Assembly (NCBI GenBank): GCA_014584465.1
Contig: JACTMU010000094.1
Span: 1-64,000 of the forward strand
Source of the DNA: Pseudomonadota bacterium
GTDB lineage: Bacteria; Bdellovibrionota; Bdellovibrionia; Bdellovibrionales; JACTMU01
DNA: 64,000 bases
Reading direction: 5' to 3'
The notes below the pieces were generated by a model. It saw only the letters and a program-made list of their open reading frames with translations. It was not told where the DNA came from and did not search any database. The position numbers were made by a program, and so were the translations under genes. The first letter of the stretch is position 1. Every line of letters begins with the position of its first letter. Of this stretch, positions 4,019-9,921 are shown one piece after another.

Positions 4019-4095
4019 TTGTTGCTCCTCATATGGATAGCCACTTCCTTAGTATGCAAGCTTCAAGCCATTCTAGTTAGGATCCTGACGCTTCT

Positions 4096-4520
4096 TGATC
4101 TGCAAGCTACTCAAACTTGAATATTAGCTAACGACAATTCTGCTTATCGACCAATCCACGAGGTTCACTAAGTGCGCGACTCATCCTTTCAAGATTGAGG
4201 GCAGAGGTTGCGACCAGGATCGACACGATCATTACGATGACACTGATAAATTCCTTCATACCTACTTCCTCCAGTAAGCCCATAATCGGGCCGTTAAAAA
4301 TGGCCCTATGAAAGTTAAAAAGGAGGAGCAAGCGAAGCAGGCAATCCGCAGAATAGGTGAAGCCAAATTGTAGCCACAATGTAGCCAACTTCCGTGATTG
4401 CGCGTGATGAAGTGTGATGTCCTTCAGCTACGGGATCTCTAAGTGATTGAAACATTTTGTCTGTAATTTTGAGTTTTTACGATTCTCGGTCACTAAATTC
4501 GTGATACAAATGGCGGAGAG
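4096..4520. repeat. Direct repeat A with copy of tRNA-Ser 3' end
   Basis: This segment is repeated in the same orientation at 9420-9841. The outer parts (about 4096-4255 and 4365-4520) are nearly identical, while the middle (about 4265-4360) has diverged. The last 10 bases, TGGCGGAGAG, equal the 3' terminus of the tRNA-Ser gene including its encoded CCA, followed here by unrelated sequence. This is expected of an attachment site left by an element that integrates into a tRNA 3' end. No integrase is seen in the window. Confidence 0.85.
4128..4259 (-). CDS. Small single-span membrane peptide
   Basis: The 43-residue peptide begins MKEFISVIVMIVSILVATS, one hydrophobic helix, followed by a polar tail (ERMSRALSEPRGLVDKQNC). 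The ATG follows GGAGGAAGTAGGT, a strong ribosome-binding site, which is why I choose this start over an upstream in-frame ATG that lacks one. It lies inside direct repeat A. The second copy of the repeat holds the same reading frame broken by a 4-base deletion. I do not recognise the family. Size and topology recall type I toxin or small stress peptides, but nothing else supports that. Confidence 0.45.
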   Translation of the reverse strand: MKEFISVIVMIVSILVATSALNLERMSRALSEPRGLVDKQNCR

Positions 4521-4892
4521 AAGTCGCTGAATTCAGAACCGAGTGCATGGCTTGGGCTTCATGACTTATCCACTTAAAACAACTCTAGATTTAGGGCTTT
4601 CCAGATTCAATGAGATTCTGTTCTCGGTGTTGGGAGCTCATGTTCTCATCCAACGAATGTTCTCGGTTGGTTCTCGCCGGGACGGCCACGTGCACGCAGT
4701 GTCCAAGGCCCCTGCCACAGTCCAAGAGGAGTTCTTCCGTTGGGGTTCCGCCCGCCGCCCGCGCCGCAGACAGCGTTGTTGCAGCGGCTCTGCAGAGGTT
4801 GGATGAAATTTCAGAAGAGAGAAGGGATTTGGGTCATTGCCCAAAATTCCGGGGGCGAGAGGGGCGCTATGCTGTCTTCCACACTTAGACCA
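4521..4892. other. GC-rich stretch without a supported gene
   Basis: Between direct repeat A and the TetR gene lies a segment whose middle (about 4665-4810) is much richer in G+C than its surroundings. Several short open frames overlap here on both strands, and none has a recognisable domain or good ribosome-binding site. It reads like a fragment of foreign DNA left inside the island. Confidence 0.4.
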
Positions 4893-5480
4893 CTAACCCA
4901 AGTAGCCCTGAATGAGACGTTCAACAGACTTAGTTGCATACCCTTTCGGAAGTAGCCCTGGCGCAGATTGTGAAAGCAGGAACGCTCCTTCCATCAATGA
5001 AATTATCCCGGCTGTAGCTTCAGCAATTTCACTTTTTGAAAATCCTTTTTCTTTAAATAGAGTTTCGAGTTCGCTTCTTATTTTCTCAACTCGCAACACA
5101 AGAGACTCCTTATATACCTTCCGCACATCTTCATGTCTGGATGCTTCTGCGGCTATCACAACCCAAGCACTGACGGCTTCAGGGGAGGCATCCTTTCCTA
5201 GGCCTAAAAGAGCCTGAATCGTAGCCGTCAGCGAAAGCTTCTTTGATTCGTTTGCCACTGATTCTATTCTCCGCATGACTGTACCTGTTAGCCATCGAAC
5301 TGTTTCCACGAGGATCTCTTGTTTTGTCTTAAAATGATAATGAATGAGGCCTGGTGACATCTTAGCTGCCTCAGCGATTTTTTGAATGCTGGCGCCAGGA
5401 TACCCCTCCTTTCCGACGATTTTAACGAAAGCTTTGACGATTTGGAGGCGCTTCTCTTCGGTATTCGATGGTCTGCCCAT
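4893..5480 (-). CDS. TetR/AcrR-family transcriptional regulator
   Basis: The 195-residue protein has an N-terminal TetR helix-turn-helix (ASIQKIAEAAKMSPGLIHYH, then FKTKQEIL) typical of the BetI-like branch, and a C-terminal all-helical ligand and dimer domain. It is transcribed divergently from the HD-coaDE-MFS operon, and a 26-base palindrome sits in the gap between them. By the usual logic of divergent TetR pairs it represses that operon, and possibly itself, until a small ligand binds. Many TetR relatives sense acyl-CoAs or similar thioesters, which would suit the CoA-related neighbours, but the ligand is unknown. Confidence 0.85.
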   Translation of the reverse strand: MGRPSNTEEKRLQIVKAFVKIVGKEGYPGASIQKIAEAAKMSPGLIHYHFKTKQEILVETVRWLTGTVMRRIESVANESKKLSLTATIQALLGLGKDASPEAVSAWVVIAAEASRHEDVRKVYKESLVLRVEKIRSELETLFKEKGFSKSEIAEATAGIISLMEGAFLLSQSAPGLLPKGYATKSVERLIQGYLG

Positions 5481-5521: not shown

Positions 5522-5547
5522 AAATAGTTTGGTTAACCAACCAATTT
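5522..5547. promoter_or_regulatory. Palindromic operator, probable TetR site
   Basis: The core TTGGTTAACCAA (5529-5540) is a perfect 12-base palindrome. Extended to 26 bases, 11 of 13 pairs match. It lies between the divergent TetR gene and the operon beginning at 5580. Size and position fit a TetR-dimer operator that would block both promoters. Confidence 0.7.
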
Positions 5548-5579
5548 ATGAGATACTTAATAATGAAAGGAGGCAGTAT

Positions 5580-6533
5580 ATGGAAAAGGCGAATGCAGGC
5601 TCCACGAGGGACTTTAGATCACTTACTCCAGATGAAACTGAGTATGTTCTCGTGAAAACGACCGCAGCGGGCCCATGGGCTGAAGACCTCTTCTTCATTA
5701 TTGTAGCGAATGGCGGTCAGAACTGGGAGATTCCCAATGCCCACAGCAACGCCGTTTTCGATTGGCTCAAATCTTTCCCAAATGTTGATTGGGAATTGTC
5801 CATAAAGGCTGCAACTTGCACGGACGAGAGATGGTTTGTTTTATGGCGAAAGGACGGCGCTCCAAACTTTGACAAAGATATTCAAAACTCTCTATCGGAC
5901 AGATTGCTTAGATTTTTTGAAAATCACGTTCGGTTGCCTCGAGCTCAGTCTGAAAGTTTAGCTGCTAAAATTATTTCTTCGTTTCAAGAAAATCAACGCG
6001 CCTATCATTCACTAAGACATATCAATCAATGCTTGTGGGAACTCGACACCCTCCAAATTTCTGGGCCTGACAAACTGATCATCGAACTGGCCATCTGGTA
6101 TCACGATCTTGTCTATACGGCCGGTAATAAAAACAATGAAGCCTTAAGTGCAGACAGGTTTGAATCTGATCTCAAAGATCACTTAAGTCAGGAGACTCGG
6201 GATAAAGTCAAAAAAATGATTATTGCATCTGCTCACGTGAGCCTACCAACAGCGTTGGATGAGGCAACTCAACTCTTTCTGGACATTGATATGTCAATTC
6301 TCGGCCTCTCTTTATTTGAATTCTTGGCTTATGAATACGGAGTTCGTGAGGAGTACAAAAAAATATATTCCGGAAGATTCTTTTTTCGTCGAAAGAAGTT
6401 CCTGAAGATTCTTTTAAAGAAGCCAATTTATTTGAGCGGCCATTTTAAGAAAAAGTACGAGCAGGCTGCGGTAGGTAATATTCAGTGGCTCCTAAAACAA
6501 AGCCCTTACAAATGGATTCCTACCTTTGGATGA
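5580..6533 (+). CDS. HD-superfamily metal-dependent hydrolase with extra N-terminal domain
   Basis: I choose the ATG at 5580 because AAAGGAGG lies just before it. An upstream in-frame ATG at 5529 lies inside the operator. The 317-residue protein has two parts. Residues 1 to about 110 form a domain I do not recognise, with a possible cysteine-containing core. Residues 115 to 310 match the predicted metal-dependent HD phosphohydrolase family (COG4339 type): RAYHSLRHI (H143, H147), WYHD (H175, D176), NNEALSA (E187), H219 and LDIDMSILG (D235, D237). The catalytic His/Asp set looks complete. Its stop lies 10 bases before the CoaD-CoaE start, so they are co-transcribed. Removal of a phosphate from a CoA precursor or nucleotide is a guess from context. 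Confidence 0.72.
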   Translation: MEKANAGSTRDFRSLTPDETEYVLVKTTAAGPWAEDLFFIIVANGGQNWEIPNAHSNAVFDWLKSFPNVDWELSIKAATCTDERWFVLWRKDGAPNFDKDIQNSLSDRLLRFFENHVRLPRAQSESLAAKIISSFQENQRAYHSLRHINQCLWELDTLQISGPDKLIIELAIWYHDLVYTAGNKNNEALSADRFESDLKDHLSQETRDKVKKMIIASAHVSLPTALDEATQLFLDIDMSILGLSLFEFLAYEYGVREEYKKIYSGRFFFRRKKFLKILLKKPIYLSGHFKKKYEQAAVGNIQWLLKQSPYKWIPTFG

Positions 6534-6543
6534 TGGAGCATTT

Positions 6544-7695
6544 ATGATGAAGAAACAGTATAAGGCAATTTTCGCATTCTCTGTCGATCCAATAACCAAA
6601 GGTCATATAAATATTATCGAACGAGCCACCCAGCAGTTCTCGCCCTTACTCGTAGCCATCGGCAACAACGCCTTAAAGAAATATGTATTCACACTGGAAG
6701 AGCGCTCGACTTTAGCAAAAGAGGCAATGGCCCATCTTTCGGGCGTTGATGTGGTCCACTTCAATGGCTTGCTCACTGACCTAGCTTACGAGCACAATAT
6801 TGGAGTTATTATCAGAGGTGTTCGCACTATAAGTGATTTTGAATTCGAAAGTATTCTGTTTCAAGTTGGCATGAGCCAGCGGCGAGGAATTGAATTCTAT
6901 TTTCTTCCCACTCATCCGCAGTACAGCCATATTAGCTCAACTGCCGTTAAGGCACTTGTCGCAGAGAGTGGCATAGTAACCGACTACGTACCACTGAATG
7001 TTAAGGAAGCGCTGGAAAAGAAAATATTGGGACAAACAGTCGTTGGCATCACAGGCAACATAGGTGCTGGTAAGTCTCATTTCTGTCAAAGTCTTGTAAA
7101 TCTGAGCAGCACCTTAGGGGTACCCATTTCGCATATCGACCTCGATCAGTTGGTAAAGGATCTATTGTTTCTTGATAATTCTGAATATGCCAATCGTGCG
7201 CGAGAAAAAGTTTGTAGTTATCTTCCAAAGGAATTGTTCTCGGAAGAAGGTTTGATCAACGATAAACGCTTTTCACAGCATGCGTTTTCTGATCCAGCAG
7301 TTCTTCACCGCCTCACGAAGGATTTCCTAGAGCCCGCCTTATACAAATTACGAAAGGCTCAATCGGGTCAGCGCGGTATAGTGCTAGTTGAATCGGCGCT
7401 CTTCGCCGACCTGAAGTTGACTGAAATAGTAAATAATCGCCTAATCTTAATTGAGACTCCTGAAAGCGAGATACTTGCACGCCTTAATAAACGTGTTTAT
7501 TCGGACGAGGACATCCGTCAACGGATATCAAGCCAACTTTCAAGCTCAGAAAAAGTAGGTGTCATTGAGAGGAAAATCGCTGAGGCGAAATGGGGCAGAT
7601 GCGTAAAATTAAGTTCCCACTGCTCGCAAGACGAAGCCATTCACGCACTCAAAACTGTTATAGGTGATGGGAAGGAGCTTGGCGATGACTACTAA
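6544..7695 (+). CDS. coaD-coaE: CoaD-CoaE fusion: phosphopantetheine adenylyltransferase / dephospho-CoA kinase
   Basis: The 383-residue protein carries both final steps of CoA synthesis on one chain. Residues 1 to about 155 are CoaD: FSVDPITKGHINIIERA holds the nucleotidyltransferase TxGH signature (T18-H21), then KKYVFTLEER, RGVRTISDFEFE (R91, R94) and HISSTAVKAL (130-138, Lys where Arg is usual). Residues from about 163 are CoaE: the Walker A loop GITGNIGAGKS (168-178), then HIDLDQLVKDLL and a lid region. Together they convert 4'-phosphopantetheine plus two ATP into CoA. The domain order is that of animal CoA synthase, while bacteria normally keep two separate proteins. GGAG 6 bases upstream supports this ATG over one at 6526. 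The MFS gene overlaps its end. Confidence 0.85.
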   Translation: MMKKQYKAIFAFSVDPITKGHINIIERATQQFSPLLVAIGNNALKKYVFTLEERSTLAKEAMAHLSGVDVVHFNGLLTDLAYEHNIGVIIRGVRTISDFEFESILFQVGMSQRRGIEFYFLPTHPQYSHISSTAVKALVAESGIVTDYVPLNVKEALEKKILGQTVVGITGNIGAGKSHFCQSLVNLSSTLGVPISHIDLDQLVKDLLFLDNSEYANRAREKVCSYLPKELFSEEGLINDKRFSQHAFSDPAVLHRLTKDFLEPALYKLRKAQSGQRGIVLVESALFADLKLTEIVNNRLILIETPESEILARLNKRVYSDEDIRQRISSQLSSSEKVGVIERKIAEAKWGRCVKLSSHCSQDEAIHALKTVIGDGKELGDDY

Positions 7696-8920
7696 ATCAA
7701 AGCTCGCTTTACTGACCAGTCTTTACCTAGCGCAAGGTCTGCCATTCGGATTTTTCACTCAAGCCCTCCCTGTAATTATGCGGCAACAGGGAATGTCGTT
7801 GGAATCCATCGGATTTAGTTCCCTTCTTGCTTTACCATGGGCCCTTAAACTCTTATGGGCACCTCTCGTTGACAAACACTATTCAAATAAGATTGGCCGC
7901 AGACGGAGCTGGATTCTGCCACTGCAGTTCATGTCGATTACTTTAATGATTATCGCTGCGATGTTTGACGCTAAAAACGAATTCACCGGTCTAATTGGTT
8001 TGATTTTTATTGTTAACCTTCTCGCATCGACTCAAGACATCGCAACAGACGGTTTGGCCGTAGAACTCCTTAGTCAGAAGGAGCGCGGTTTAGGAAATGG
8101 AATTCAAGTCGCCGGATATCGCCTTGGAATGATTATTGGAGGTGGTGCGCTTCTTGTAGTTTTCGAGAAACTGGGCTGGCGTCTAGCGTTCTTTTCTATG
8201 GCTATTATCTTGGCCATAGCAACTATTCCCATTTTTTTGCATTCTGAAAAGAAAACCATACTGCCCGAATCACACGCCCAACTTCGATGGAAGGATTTCT
8301 TATCTTTTTTCAAAACCAGAGATATATGGCTTTGGATCATTGGATTGTTTTTTTACAAAAGTGGAGACGCCTTTGCTACCCAAATGCTCCGCCCTCTCCT
8401 GGTTGACATGAAATACAGCATGAGTGAAATCGGAGGTATTGTGGGCACCATCGGTTTTGGCTTTGGCTTAATTGGATCTCTGTTAGGTGGTTGGCTCGTA
8501 AATACATTAGCGAGAAGAAAATCTCTCCTTACTTTTTCTCTTCTCCAAACGGTTACGATCCTCGGTTACTTTCTCATGGCAAATAACGCAGCTAACTCTA
8601 TAGCAGTTGTTTATGCACTGAGTGCTCTAGAGCATTTTTGTGGCGGCCTTGCCACGGTGGCGATCTTCACGGTCATGATGGACAAATGCAACCCTAATAT
8701 TGCTGCAACTGACTATACTATCCAGGCATGTATCGTGGTTATCTCCACCGGAGTATTTTCTGCACTCAGCGGAATTAGCGCAAATCAGTTTGGATATGCT
8801 GGTCACTTCATTATTGCGGCGATACTTTCATTTCTGGGATTCATAGCAATTTATTTTGGATCGAAGCATCTTAGCCAGAGTTTCATCTCTTCCGGGAAGA
8901 TAGAAATACTGGAGAGTTAA
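7685..8920 (+). CDS. MFS transporter, AmpG / acetyl-CoA-transporter-like
   Basis: The 411-residue protein has about 12 transmembrane segments and begins SKLALLTSLYLAQGLPFGFF, typical of the AmpG branch of the major facilitator superfamily. That branch also contains the acetyl-CoA transporters. Family-type motifs are STQDIATDGLAVELLS and RGLGNGIQVAGYRLGMIIGG. It sits in the inner membrane and probably imports a metabolite. In its context this could be a CoA breakdown product such as a pantetheine compound, or a muropeptide as for AmpG proper. GGGAAGGAG ahead of the ATG at 7685 supports this start, which overlaps the end of the coaD-coaE gene by 11 bases. Confidence 0.75.
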   Translation: MTTKSKLALLTSLYLAQGLPFGFFTQALPVIMRQQGMSLESIGFSSLLALPWALKLLWAPLVDKHYSNKIGRRRSWILPLQFMSITLMIIAAMFDAKNEFTGLIGLIFIVNLLASTQDIATDGLAVELLSQKERGLGNGIQVAGYRLGMIIGGGALLVVFEKLGWRLAFFSMAIILAIATIPIFLHSEKKTILPESHAQLRWKDFLSFFKTRDIWLWIIGLFFYKSGDAFATQMLRPLLVDMKYSMSEIGGIVGTIGFGFGLIGSLLGGWLVNTLARRKSLLTFSLLQTVTILGYFLMANNAANSIAVVYALSALEHFCGGLATVAIFTVMMDKCNPNIAATDYTIQACIVVISTGVFSALSGISANQFGYAGHFIIAAILSFLGFIAIYFGSKHLSQSFISSGKIEILES

Positions 8921-8967: not shown

Positions 8968-9270
8968 TTGTTCGGGACCGAGAACAATCCAGAAGCTTTA
9001 TTGAGCTTTCAGAAGCAAAATTTAAAAAGGTGGGGGGGTGTTTTTCTAGGCACTGCAATGCTCACTGAAGAGACCCGACGTGACCTTCTGGAACTTGTAG
9101 AGGAGAGAAATGGAGTCGGCGCCACCCTGATCACTTCTCAACTTCCGGTTGGTGAATGGCATGATCATTTTGGAGGCGGACGAGTTGCCGATGCCATCTG
9201 CGACCGTCTTGTAAGAAATGCACACCGGATCGATCTATTCGGCGATACTAGGCGACCCAAAGTTGACTAA
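8968..9270 (+). pseudogene. IS21-family IstB helper ATPase, C-terminal fragment
   Basis: From about 9055 the frame reads LTEETRRDLLELVEERNG and continues with GATLITSQLPVGEWHDHFGG and ADAICDRLVRNAHRIDL. This is the conserved C-terminus of IstB, the AAA+ helper of IS21 transposition. Walker A and B are missing, so only about the last 70 residues survive. The first 25 or so residues of the open frame are unrelated sequence joined by the truncation. Confidence 0.75.
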
Positions 9271-9385: not shown

Positions 9386-9419
9386 CGAAATACGCATCCA
9401 AGCCATCTCACGCTTCATA

Positions 9420-9841
9420 TGATCTGCAAGCTACTCAAACTTGAATATTAGCTAACGACAATTCTGCTTATCGACCAATCCACGAGGTTCACTAAGTGCG
9501 CGACTCATCCTTTCAAGAGGGCAGAGGTTCCGACCCGGATCGACACGATCATTACGATGACACTGATAATTTCCTTCATACTTACTTCCTTTCTTGTAGG
9601 TCTATATTCGGACCATCAAAAATTGTTCTTTGAAAGTTATATGGAGGAGCGAGCGAGGCTGGAAAACTGCTGAATTTGTGAAGCCAACTTGTAGCCACAA
9701 TGTAGCCAACTTCCGTGATTGCGCGTGATGAAGTGTGATGTCCTTCAGCTACGGGATCTCTAAGTGATTGAAACCTTTTGTCTGTAATATTCAGTTCTTA
9801 CGATTCTCGGTCACTAAATTCGTGATACAAATGGCGGAGAG
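9420..9841. repeat. Direct repeat B ending inside tRNA-Ser
   Basis: This is the second copy of the repeat at 4096-4520, in the same orientation. It ends within the 3' terminus of the tRNA-Ser gene. Near 9660-9720 both copies hold GTAGCCAC and GTAGCCAA motifs close together, which could be arm-type recombinase sites. It forms the tRNA-proximal boundary of the island whose distal boundary is repeat A. Confidence 0.85.
9505..9579 (-). pseudogene. Decayed copy of the small membrane peptide
   Basis: The reading frame starts MKEIISVIVMIVSI, matching the 43-residue peptide of repeat A. A deletion of four bases relative to that copy shifts the frame and stops it after 24 residues. The ribosome-binding site is also weaker (AAAGGAAG). 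Whether the short peptide is still made is unknown. Confidence 0.5.
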
Positions 9842-9921
9842 GGAGAGATTCGAACTCTCGAGACGCGTTAACGTCTGCCGGTTTTCAAGACCGGTGCTTT
9901 CAACCGCTCAGCCACCTCTCC
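9832..9921 (-). tRNA. tRNA-Ser (anticodon UGA)
   Basis: The 90-base gene has acceptor stem GGAGAGG pairing with CCTCTCC, an encoded CCA end, the anticodon loop CTTGAAA on a CCGGT/ACCGG stem (anticodon at 9885-9887), a long variable arm typical of class II tRNAs, and a TTCGAAT T-loop. It reads UCA codons. It lies next to serS and serves as the attachment site of the flanking island. Confidence 0.96.

Follow-up and report, generated by a model that had tools for sequence, protein, structure and literature searches.

We describe an operon in a 64,000-nucleotide stretch of contig JACTMU010000094.1 (assembly GCA_014584465.1, Bdellovibrionota, from a bacterium of a predatory lineage), referred to below as the window, in which a gene for an HD-family hydrolase is followed by a gene for a fused CoaD-CoaE protein. 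We are fairly confident that this is a TetR-repressed operon encoding a second, fused coenzyme A (CoA) synthase, together with an HD metallo-phosphohydrolase whose substrate is a small molecule from that end of the pathway. Among bacteria, archaea, and phages that are not related to one another, HD genes were found beside, or joined to, CoaD-CoaE, a pattern suggesting that the CoA pathway has a partner not described so far. A broader proposal, which in our judgment falls a little short of an even call, is that HD acts in CoA metabolism as an enzyme not previously described. On this proposal, HD became attached to CoaD or CoaE on several occasions in bacteria, DPANN archaea, and phages, whether through a shared operon, gene overlap, or fusion, and the result amounts to a trifunctional CoA synthase-hydrolase by which CoA is recycled or proofread at the level of 4'-phosphopantetheine. 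The fusion would convert 4'-phosphopantetheine to dephospho-CoA and then to CoA, and HD would hydrolyse a CoA-type compound next to CoaD, most likely feeding or cleaning the substrate pool of CoaD. More tentatively still, HD may act on CoA or a related phosphodiester and free 4'-phosphopantetheine from it, so that CoA can be made anew. The genes of the locus and its predicted operator were located as follows.

5580..6533, + strand: HD phosphohydrolase of 317 amino acids, with an N-terminal part of about 95 amino acids followed by an HD/phosphodiesterase-like domain (phrog_19425 'phosphohydrolase', E = 4.8e-24)
6544..7695, + strand: CoaD-CoaE fusion of 383 amino acids, phosphopantetheine adenylyltransferase (PPAT) plus dephospho-CoA kinase (DPCK) (TIGR01510 and PF01121 over cut-off)
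7685..8920, + strand: major facilitator superfamily (MFS) transporter of the AmpG/RhtX/AT-1 group (PF07690, 136 bits; PF13000, 98.6 bits)
4893..5480, − strand: TetR-family repressor of 195 amino acids, divergent from the operon (PF00440, 45 bits; BetI-like C-terminal half, PF13977, 33.8 bits)
about 5524..5549, no strand: predicted palindromic operator with the core TTTGGTT-AACC-AACCAAT, an inverted repeat in the divergent intergenic stretch

Cellular genomes (about 85,000 species) were scanned with a DNA pattern spanning the CoaD-CoaE junction, which was blind to HD; the pattern also matched many ABC and other P-loop proteins, which were discarded after reading the frames. A total of 18 true fusions was found, in Clostridiales, Bacteroidetes, Spirochaetes, Phycisphaerae, Woesearchaeota, Pacearchaeota, and Micrarchaeota, and HD was fused or adjacent to 11 of them. 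Fusion-bearing genomes mostly held a single copy of HD and, based on about one copy per genome, we estimate the chance of a random neighbour being HD at well under 1%. HD-blind scans of viral sequences returned 10 distinct fusions, 5 of them with HD alongside (a viral scan with a single fusion protein as the query gave no matches). Moreover, CoaD or CoaE lay no more than about 6 kb away in 15 out of 66 viral HD loci.

The physical coupling took several forms. CoaD, CoaE, and HD were read in one frame in L059, L068 (581 amino acids), L103, and L100, a form found in Spirochaetes and Clostridia; HD overlapped the fusion on its downstream side in L060, L062, L073, L089, and L094, a form that includes DPANN archaea; and HD lay upstream in L058, L067, L051, L176, and L224, a form found in Bacteroidetes and phages. 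Phages also encoded single CoaD-HD proteins (L155, L179/L180, L202) and single HD-CoaD proteins (L192, L207 and, from the CoaDE scan, L236), and one viral locus (L193) carried a triple of overlapping CoaD, HD, and CoaE genes. These differing gene orders, together with the HD tree, indicate that HD and CoaD/CoaE were linked repeatedly; such repetition argues for joint function more strongly than a single inherited operon would. In that tree, several deep branches of which were weakly supported, the window HD fell within the Bdellovibrionota TetR-HD proteins (supports 100/84, 98/89, 99/96) and apart from the other CoaDE-linked HD proteins, except the viral CoaD-HD protein L202 on a long branch. 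Its pairing with CoaDE therefore arose independently, and such pairing arose more than once overall.

An initial annotation, made from the window sequence, had presented the genes as a TetR-controlled cassette whose recurrence in other genomes was to be looked for. The core of the cassette, HD with CoaD-CoaE, did recur strikingly, but the four-gene cassette was seen once only; that HD and CoaD-CoaE belong together functionally is supported by their repeated fusion or overlap in unrelated lineages. Searches of the open-licence literature returned no paper describing a link of HD to CoaD/CoaE, and no mention of COG4339.

The same data bear on the possibility that insertion sequence (IS) activity gathered unrelated genes between repeats and that the substrates of HD are ordinary nucleotides. 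An IS21 remnant and direct repeats do flank the locus, and in Bdellovibrionota, as in the majority of viral loci, HD is found on its own, with NrdB-like or NadM-like genes occasionally next to it. However, the HD-CoaDE pairing recurs in unrelated lineages and in several architectures, including in-frame fusions, and the genes of the window locus are tightly spaced or overlapping (10-bp gap between HD and the fusion, 11-bp overlap between the fusion and the MFS gene). We regard such an assembly as most improbable. The features of the locus are themselves no chance finding, the frames being intact with strong family matches and one repeat stretch of 99 bases being perfect. Four viral HD genes (L187, L206, L205, L219) were seen by eye to adjoin NrdB-like genes, or metallophosphoesterase and NadM-like adenylyltransferase genes; because of these neighbours, the HD family may have several substrates.

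Several other observations weigh against an operon of HD and CoaD-CoaE devoted to CoA. The remaining 51 of the 66 viral HD loci had neither CoaD nor CoaE nearby, as was the case for the TetR-HD pairs of Bdellovibrionota, and 7 of the 18 cellular fusions had no neighbouring HD. Two spirochaete fusions, L060 and L076, were near-identical, and HD overlapped downstream only in L060; no HD match was found in the genome carrying L076, and HD is therefore dispensable. A second CoaD or CoaE is superfluous in the window genome, and the window CoaDE was placed on a long branch (1.66), so that an altered specificity is possible. To our knowledge, there is no substrate on record for this HD family. Finally, many of the compared genomes were draft metagenome-assembled genomes (MAGs), so absences are provisional.

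The window fusion, which likely starts at ATG 6544, exceeded the NCBIfam cut-off for CoaD (TIGR01510, 134.8 versus 103.3 bits) and the Pfam cut-off for CoaE (PF01121, 58.8 versus 27 bits), with its CoaE half remaining under the TIGR00152 equivalog cut-off (48.7 versus 65.55 bits); its PDB matches were PPAT and DPCK. The CoaD motifs (S.DP...GH, K, RG.R, SS) were kept, the invariant alignment columns (S13, D15, P16, G20, H21, K45, G92, R94, S131, S132) were present in both the fusion and the host's own CoaD, and the CoaE half exhibited the P-loop GITGNIGAGKS. The separate coaD and coaE genes for which the initial annotation had proposed to look were both found: the window genome encodes canonical CoaD (C61), CoaE (C66), and CoaBC (C33). 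The fusion is therefore an addition, and the bypass of CoaA-CoaC suggested earlier is not needed. No fusion was detected in the 368 other genomes of the phylum that were searched, and CoaDE seems to have come from outside the lineage and to have been placed between the HD and MFS genes; the operon was probably assembled by horizontal transfer. A viral origin of the window fusion was considered and found unsupported, given its long branch and unresolved position in the tree. Elsewhere in that tree, a plasmid CoaDE (L004, P. silesiensis pPL1) and a viral-contig CoaDE (L052) were close relatives on short branches (100/100), and their sequence kinship suggests exchange between megaplasmid and phage. 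On the L004 plasmid, HD was located about 456 kb away from CoaDE.

In 15 of the 18 genomes, no CoaD other than the fusion exceeded the cut-off (G160, which is among them, also carries a sub-cut-off CoaD-like gene beside an HD gene), and in 15 of the 18 no other CoaE did. The fusion should therefore perform both reactions there, unless the drafts miss genes. Its assignment as a 4'-phosphopantetheine-to-CoA enzyme, as initially annotated, is feasible on sequence grounds, and the fusion can plausibly work as such in four DPANN genomes (G152, G153, G157, G158) in which CoaBC gave no match; G153 had one further, sub-cut-off CoaE-like match. The absence of CoaBC from these four suits salvage of 4'-phosphopantetheine or pantetheine. 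The archaeal DPCK family is itself absent from some DPANN members that are thought to be host-dependent (PMC6650551).

The HD gene likely starts at the ATG at 5580, which is preceded by GAAAGGAGG. Nine positions were invariant across 50 relatives (Y47, H48, H52, H80, D81, E92, S95, D142, E163, in domain numbering), and the His, Asp, and Glu among them are typical of an HD metal site (YH, H, HD, D). The PF01966 (HD) profile left the window protein unmatched and gave weak matches in 2 out of 9 relatives. The HD domain model (predicted local distance difference test score, 94.8) had its best PDB matches in the catalytic domains of class I phosphodiesterases (probability 1.00; modest E of about 0.007; TMq up to 0.64), and its predicted fold is that of a phosphodiesterase-like metallohydrolase. 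In the full-length model, the N-terminal 95 or so residues were of low confidence. This part (5580-5864) was common to the Bdellovibrionota relatives, with neither a Pfam match nor a confident model.

A phosphodiesterase-like fold brings to mind AcpH of E. coli, a phosphodiesterase that belongs to the HD family and sets phosphopantetheine free (PMC8557913). HD might likewise free 4'-phosphopantetheine from holo-acyl carrier protein (ACP), from which CoaDE would rebuild CoA, as a form of prosthetic-group recycling; the model resembles phosphodiesterases, and the product would be the substrate of CoaD. However, HD and E. coli AcpH showed no detectable resemblance in a profile comparison (hhalign probability 0.2%), leading us to reject membership of that family, and two archaea in which HD overlaps CoaDE (G153 and G158, both small draft MAGs) had no match to ACP or phosphopantetheinyl transferase, which weakens the assignment further. 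For both reasons, hydrolysis of ACP is unlikely as the general role of HD, and we give this explanation very little weight.

Alternatively, HD could be a directed-overflow or damage-control phosphatase that dephosphorylates surplus, oxidised, or damaged 4'-phosphopantetheine, a role already suggested for DUF89 in PANK4, a known phosphatase that is fused to a CoA-pathway protein and acts on CoaD's substrate (PMC9352595). Some phages fuse HD to CoaD alone, pointing to the substrate or product of CoaD, and HD is dispensable, as expected for a repair enzyme. The protein family nevertheless differs from DUF89, the HD model is nearer to phosphodiesterases than to monoesterases, and destruction of 4'-phosphopantetheine makes little sense in CoaBC-less archaea that must salvage it. 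We consider a phosphatase of this kind rather unlikely, and somewhat less likely than an HD enzyme that would supply or recycle the substrate of CoaD. With ACP set aside, the substrate of HD would be a small molecule near CoaD, either CoA or a phosphodiester that yields 4'-phosphopantetheine, or 4'-phosphopantetheine itself, and the sequence evidence is compatible with both.

The TetR protein did not reach the BetI model cut-off (TIGR03384, 72.3 versus 201.3 bits). The half-sites of the predicted operator read ATAGTTTGGTT-AACC-AACCAATTTAT, and related inverted repeats, ATAGATTGGTT-GTAC-AACCAATCTAT and variants (of the type ATTGGTT-N4-AACCAAT), were observed in four relatives at the beginning of TetR. 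An HD homologue was present in 7 out of 143 other genomes of the class (one a partial match), most being full-length with the same N-terminal extension; in five relatives (L013-L017) TetR diverged from the HD gene, and no CoaDE lay beside any of these pairs. Because of the divergent TetR in five relatives, the operator-like repeat in four, and the nesting of the window HD within this group, TetR-HD is a regulated pair native to Bdellovibrionota. The HD gene of the cassette thus derives from a TetR-HD pair mostly seen apart from CoaDE, which does not favour the initial reading. A thioester inducer and a link to prey are conjectural.

The MFS gene, with a likely start at ATG 7685, exceeded the PF13000 (AT-1, Acatn) gathering score over its N-terminal part only (98.6 versus 23.7 bits); neither the AmpG model (TIGR00901, 254 versus 350 bits) nor the RhtX model (TIGR02718, 234 bits) reached its cut-off. 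Relatives were found in 12 other genomes of the class (identity up to 48%), and a glycerophosphodiester phosphodiesterase (GDPD) gene lay near the MFS relative in all five neighbourhoods read (L250-L254), implying a phosphodiester-type or other substrate, not obviously CoA. No MFS gene was found on the viral contigs. These neighbours bear on the salvage of prey cofactor proposed in the initial annotation, in which a breakdown product of CoA would be taken up through the MFS protein, trimmed by HD, and turned back into CoA by CoaDE. Gene content fits this route, CoaDE is the only CoaD/CoaE in the four DPANN genomes without CoaBC (the extra match in G153 aside), and other organisms take up 4'-phosphopantetheine or pantetheine (PMC12406275). 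Against it, the four-gene set occurred a single time, CoaBC, CoaD, and CoaE are all present in the host, the nearest MFS relatives adjoin GDPD and not CoA genes, and no MFS gene was noted beside other CoaDE fusions in the part of the neighbourhoods that was read. We consider prey salvage unlikely; any part of the transporter in a CoA route is tentative, and its probable cargo is a metabolite that is phosphorylated or amphiphilic.

The locus is bounded by the following features.

4085..4520, no strand: left copy of a direct repeat of about 430 bp, sharing 397 of 431 aligned bases (92%) with 9407-9841
9407..9841, no strand: right copy of the direct repeat, terminating 10 bases into tRNA-Ser
9832..9921, − strand: tRNA-Ser (TGA), found by ARAGORN
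8968..9270, + strand: remnant of the IS21 helper ATPase (istB), last third only (PF01695, 48.5 bits, profile positions 163-233 of 238)

Between the repeats, TetR (− strand) and the operator were followed by the diverging HD, CoaD-CoaE, and MFS genes (+ strand). This is the layout that had been annotated at 5522-8920, from the palindromic operator to the AmpG/AT-1-type transporter and the tRNA-linked repeats, and each element was found again at matching gene and operator positions. As in a genomic island integrated at a tRNA gene, the repeat at the tRNA 3' end was present on both sides. No integrase was found among the scanned proteins of the repeat-bounded segment, where the C-terminal istB remnant adjoining the operon was the only such trace. 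A GC-rich stretch at 4540-4880 (GC 0.53 in the 4500-4999 block versus about 0.43-0.45 around it) held no convincing gene and is possibly mobile-element debris.

If the proposed association is correct, the HD family can be given a role in CoA metabolism that is open to testing, prokaryotes possess CoA synthases of their own with two or three functions, and a concrete route from 4'-phosphopantetheine to CoA is in hand for phages and for DPANN archaea without CoaBC. Fused proteins such as L068 turn the question of the HD substrate into a simple biochemical assay.

The PPAT of eukaryotes is of the archaeal type. Eukaryotic COASY (PPAT-DPCK) resembles the present fusions in carrying the last two steps in one chain (PMC12406275, PMC6650551), whereas the PPAT half here is bacterial CoaD (TIGR01510, PDB matches) and the fusions frequently come with an HD domain or gene. 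Archaea also fuse PPAT to a dephospho-CoA kinase, but in these PPAT-arCOG04076 proteins the kinase belongs to a non-homologous, GTP-dependent family (PMC6650551), whereas the DPANN fusions described here use bacterial-type CoaE (PF01121). According to the available excerpt of one study, coaD and coaE are among the abundant genes of snow viruses (PMC11097641); unlike the loci described here, these auxiliary metabolic genes are given no CoaD-CoaE fusion or HD partner in that excerpt. PANK4 (pantothenate kinase-DUF89) likewise joins a CoA-pathway protein to a metal-dependent metabolite phosphatase (PMC9352595), but its hydrolase family is unrelated and the pathway step is different. Finally, the separate CoaD and CoaE of bacteria belong to the same families, with the CoaD motifs conserved; here they are fused and HD-coupled, and most members exhibit an N-terminal motif of the FSGDPIT.GH type instead of GSFDP.

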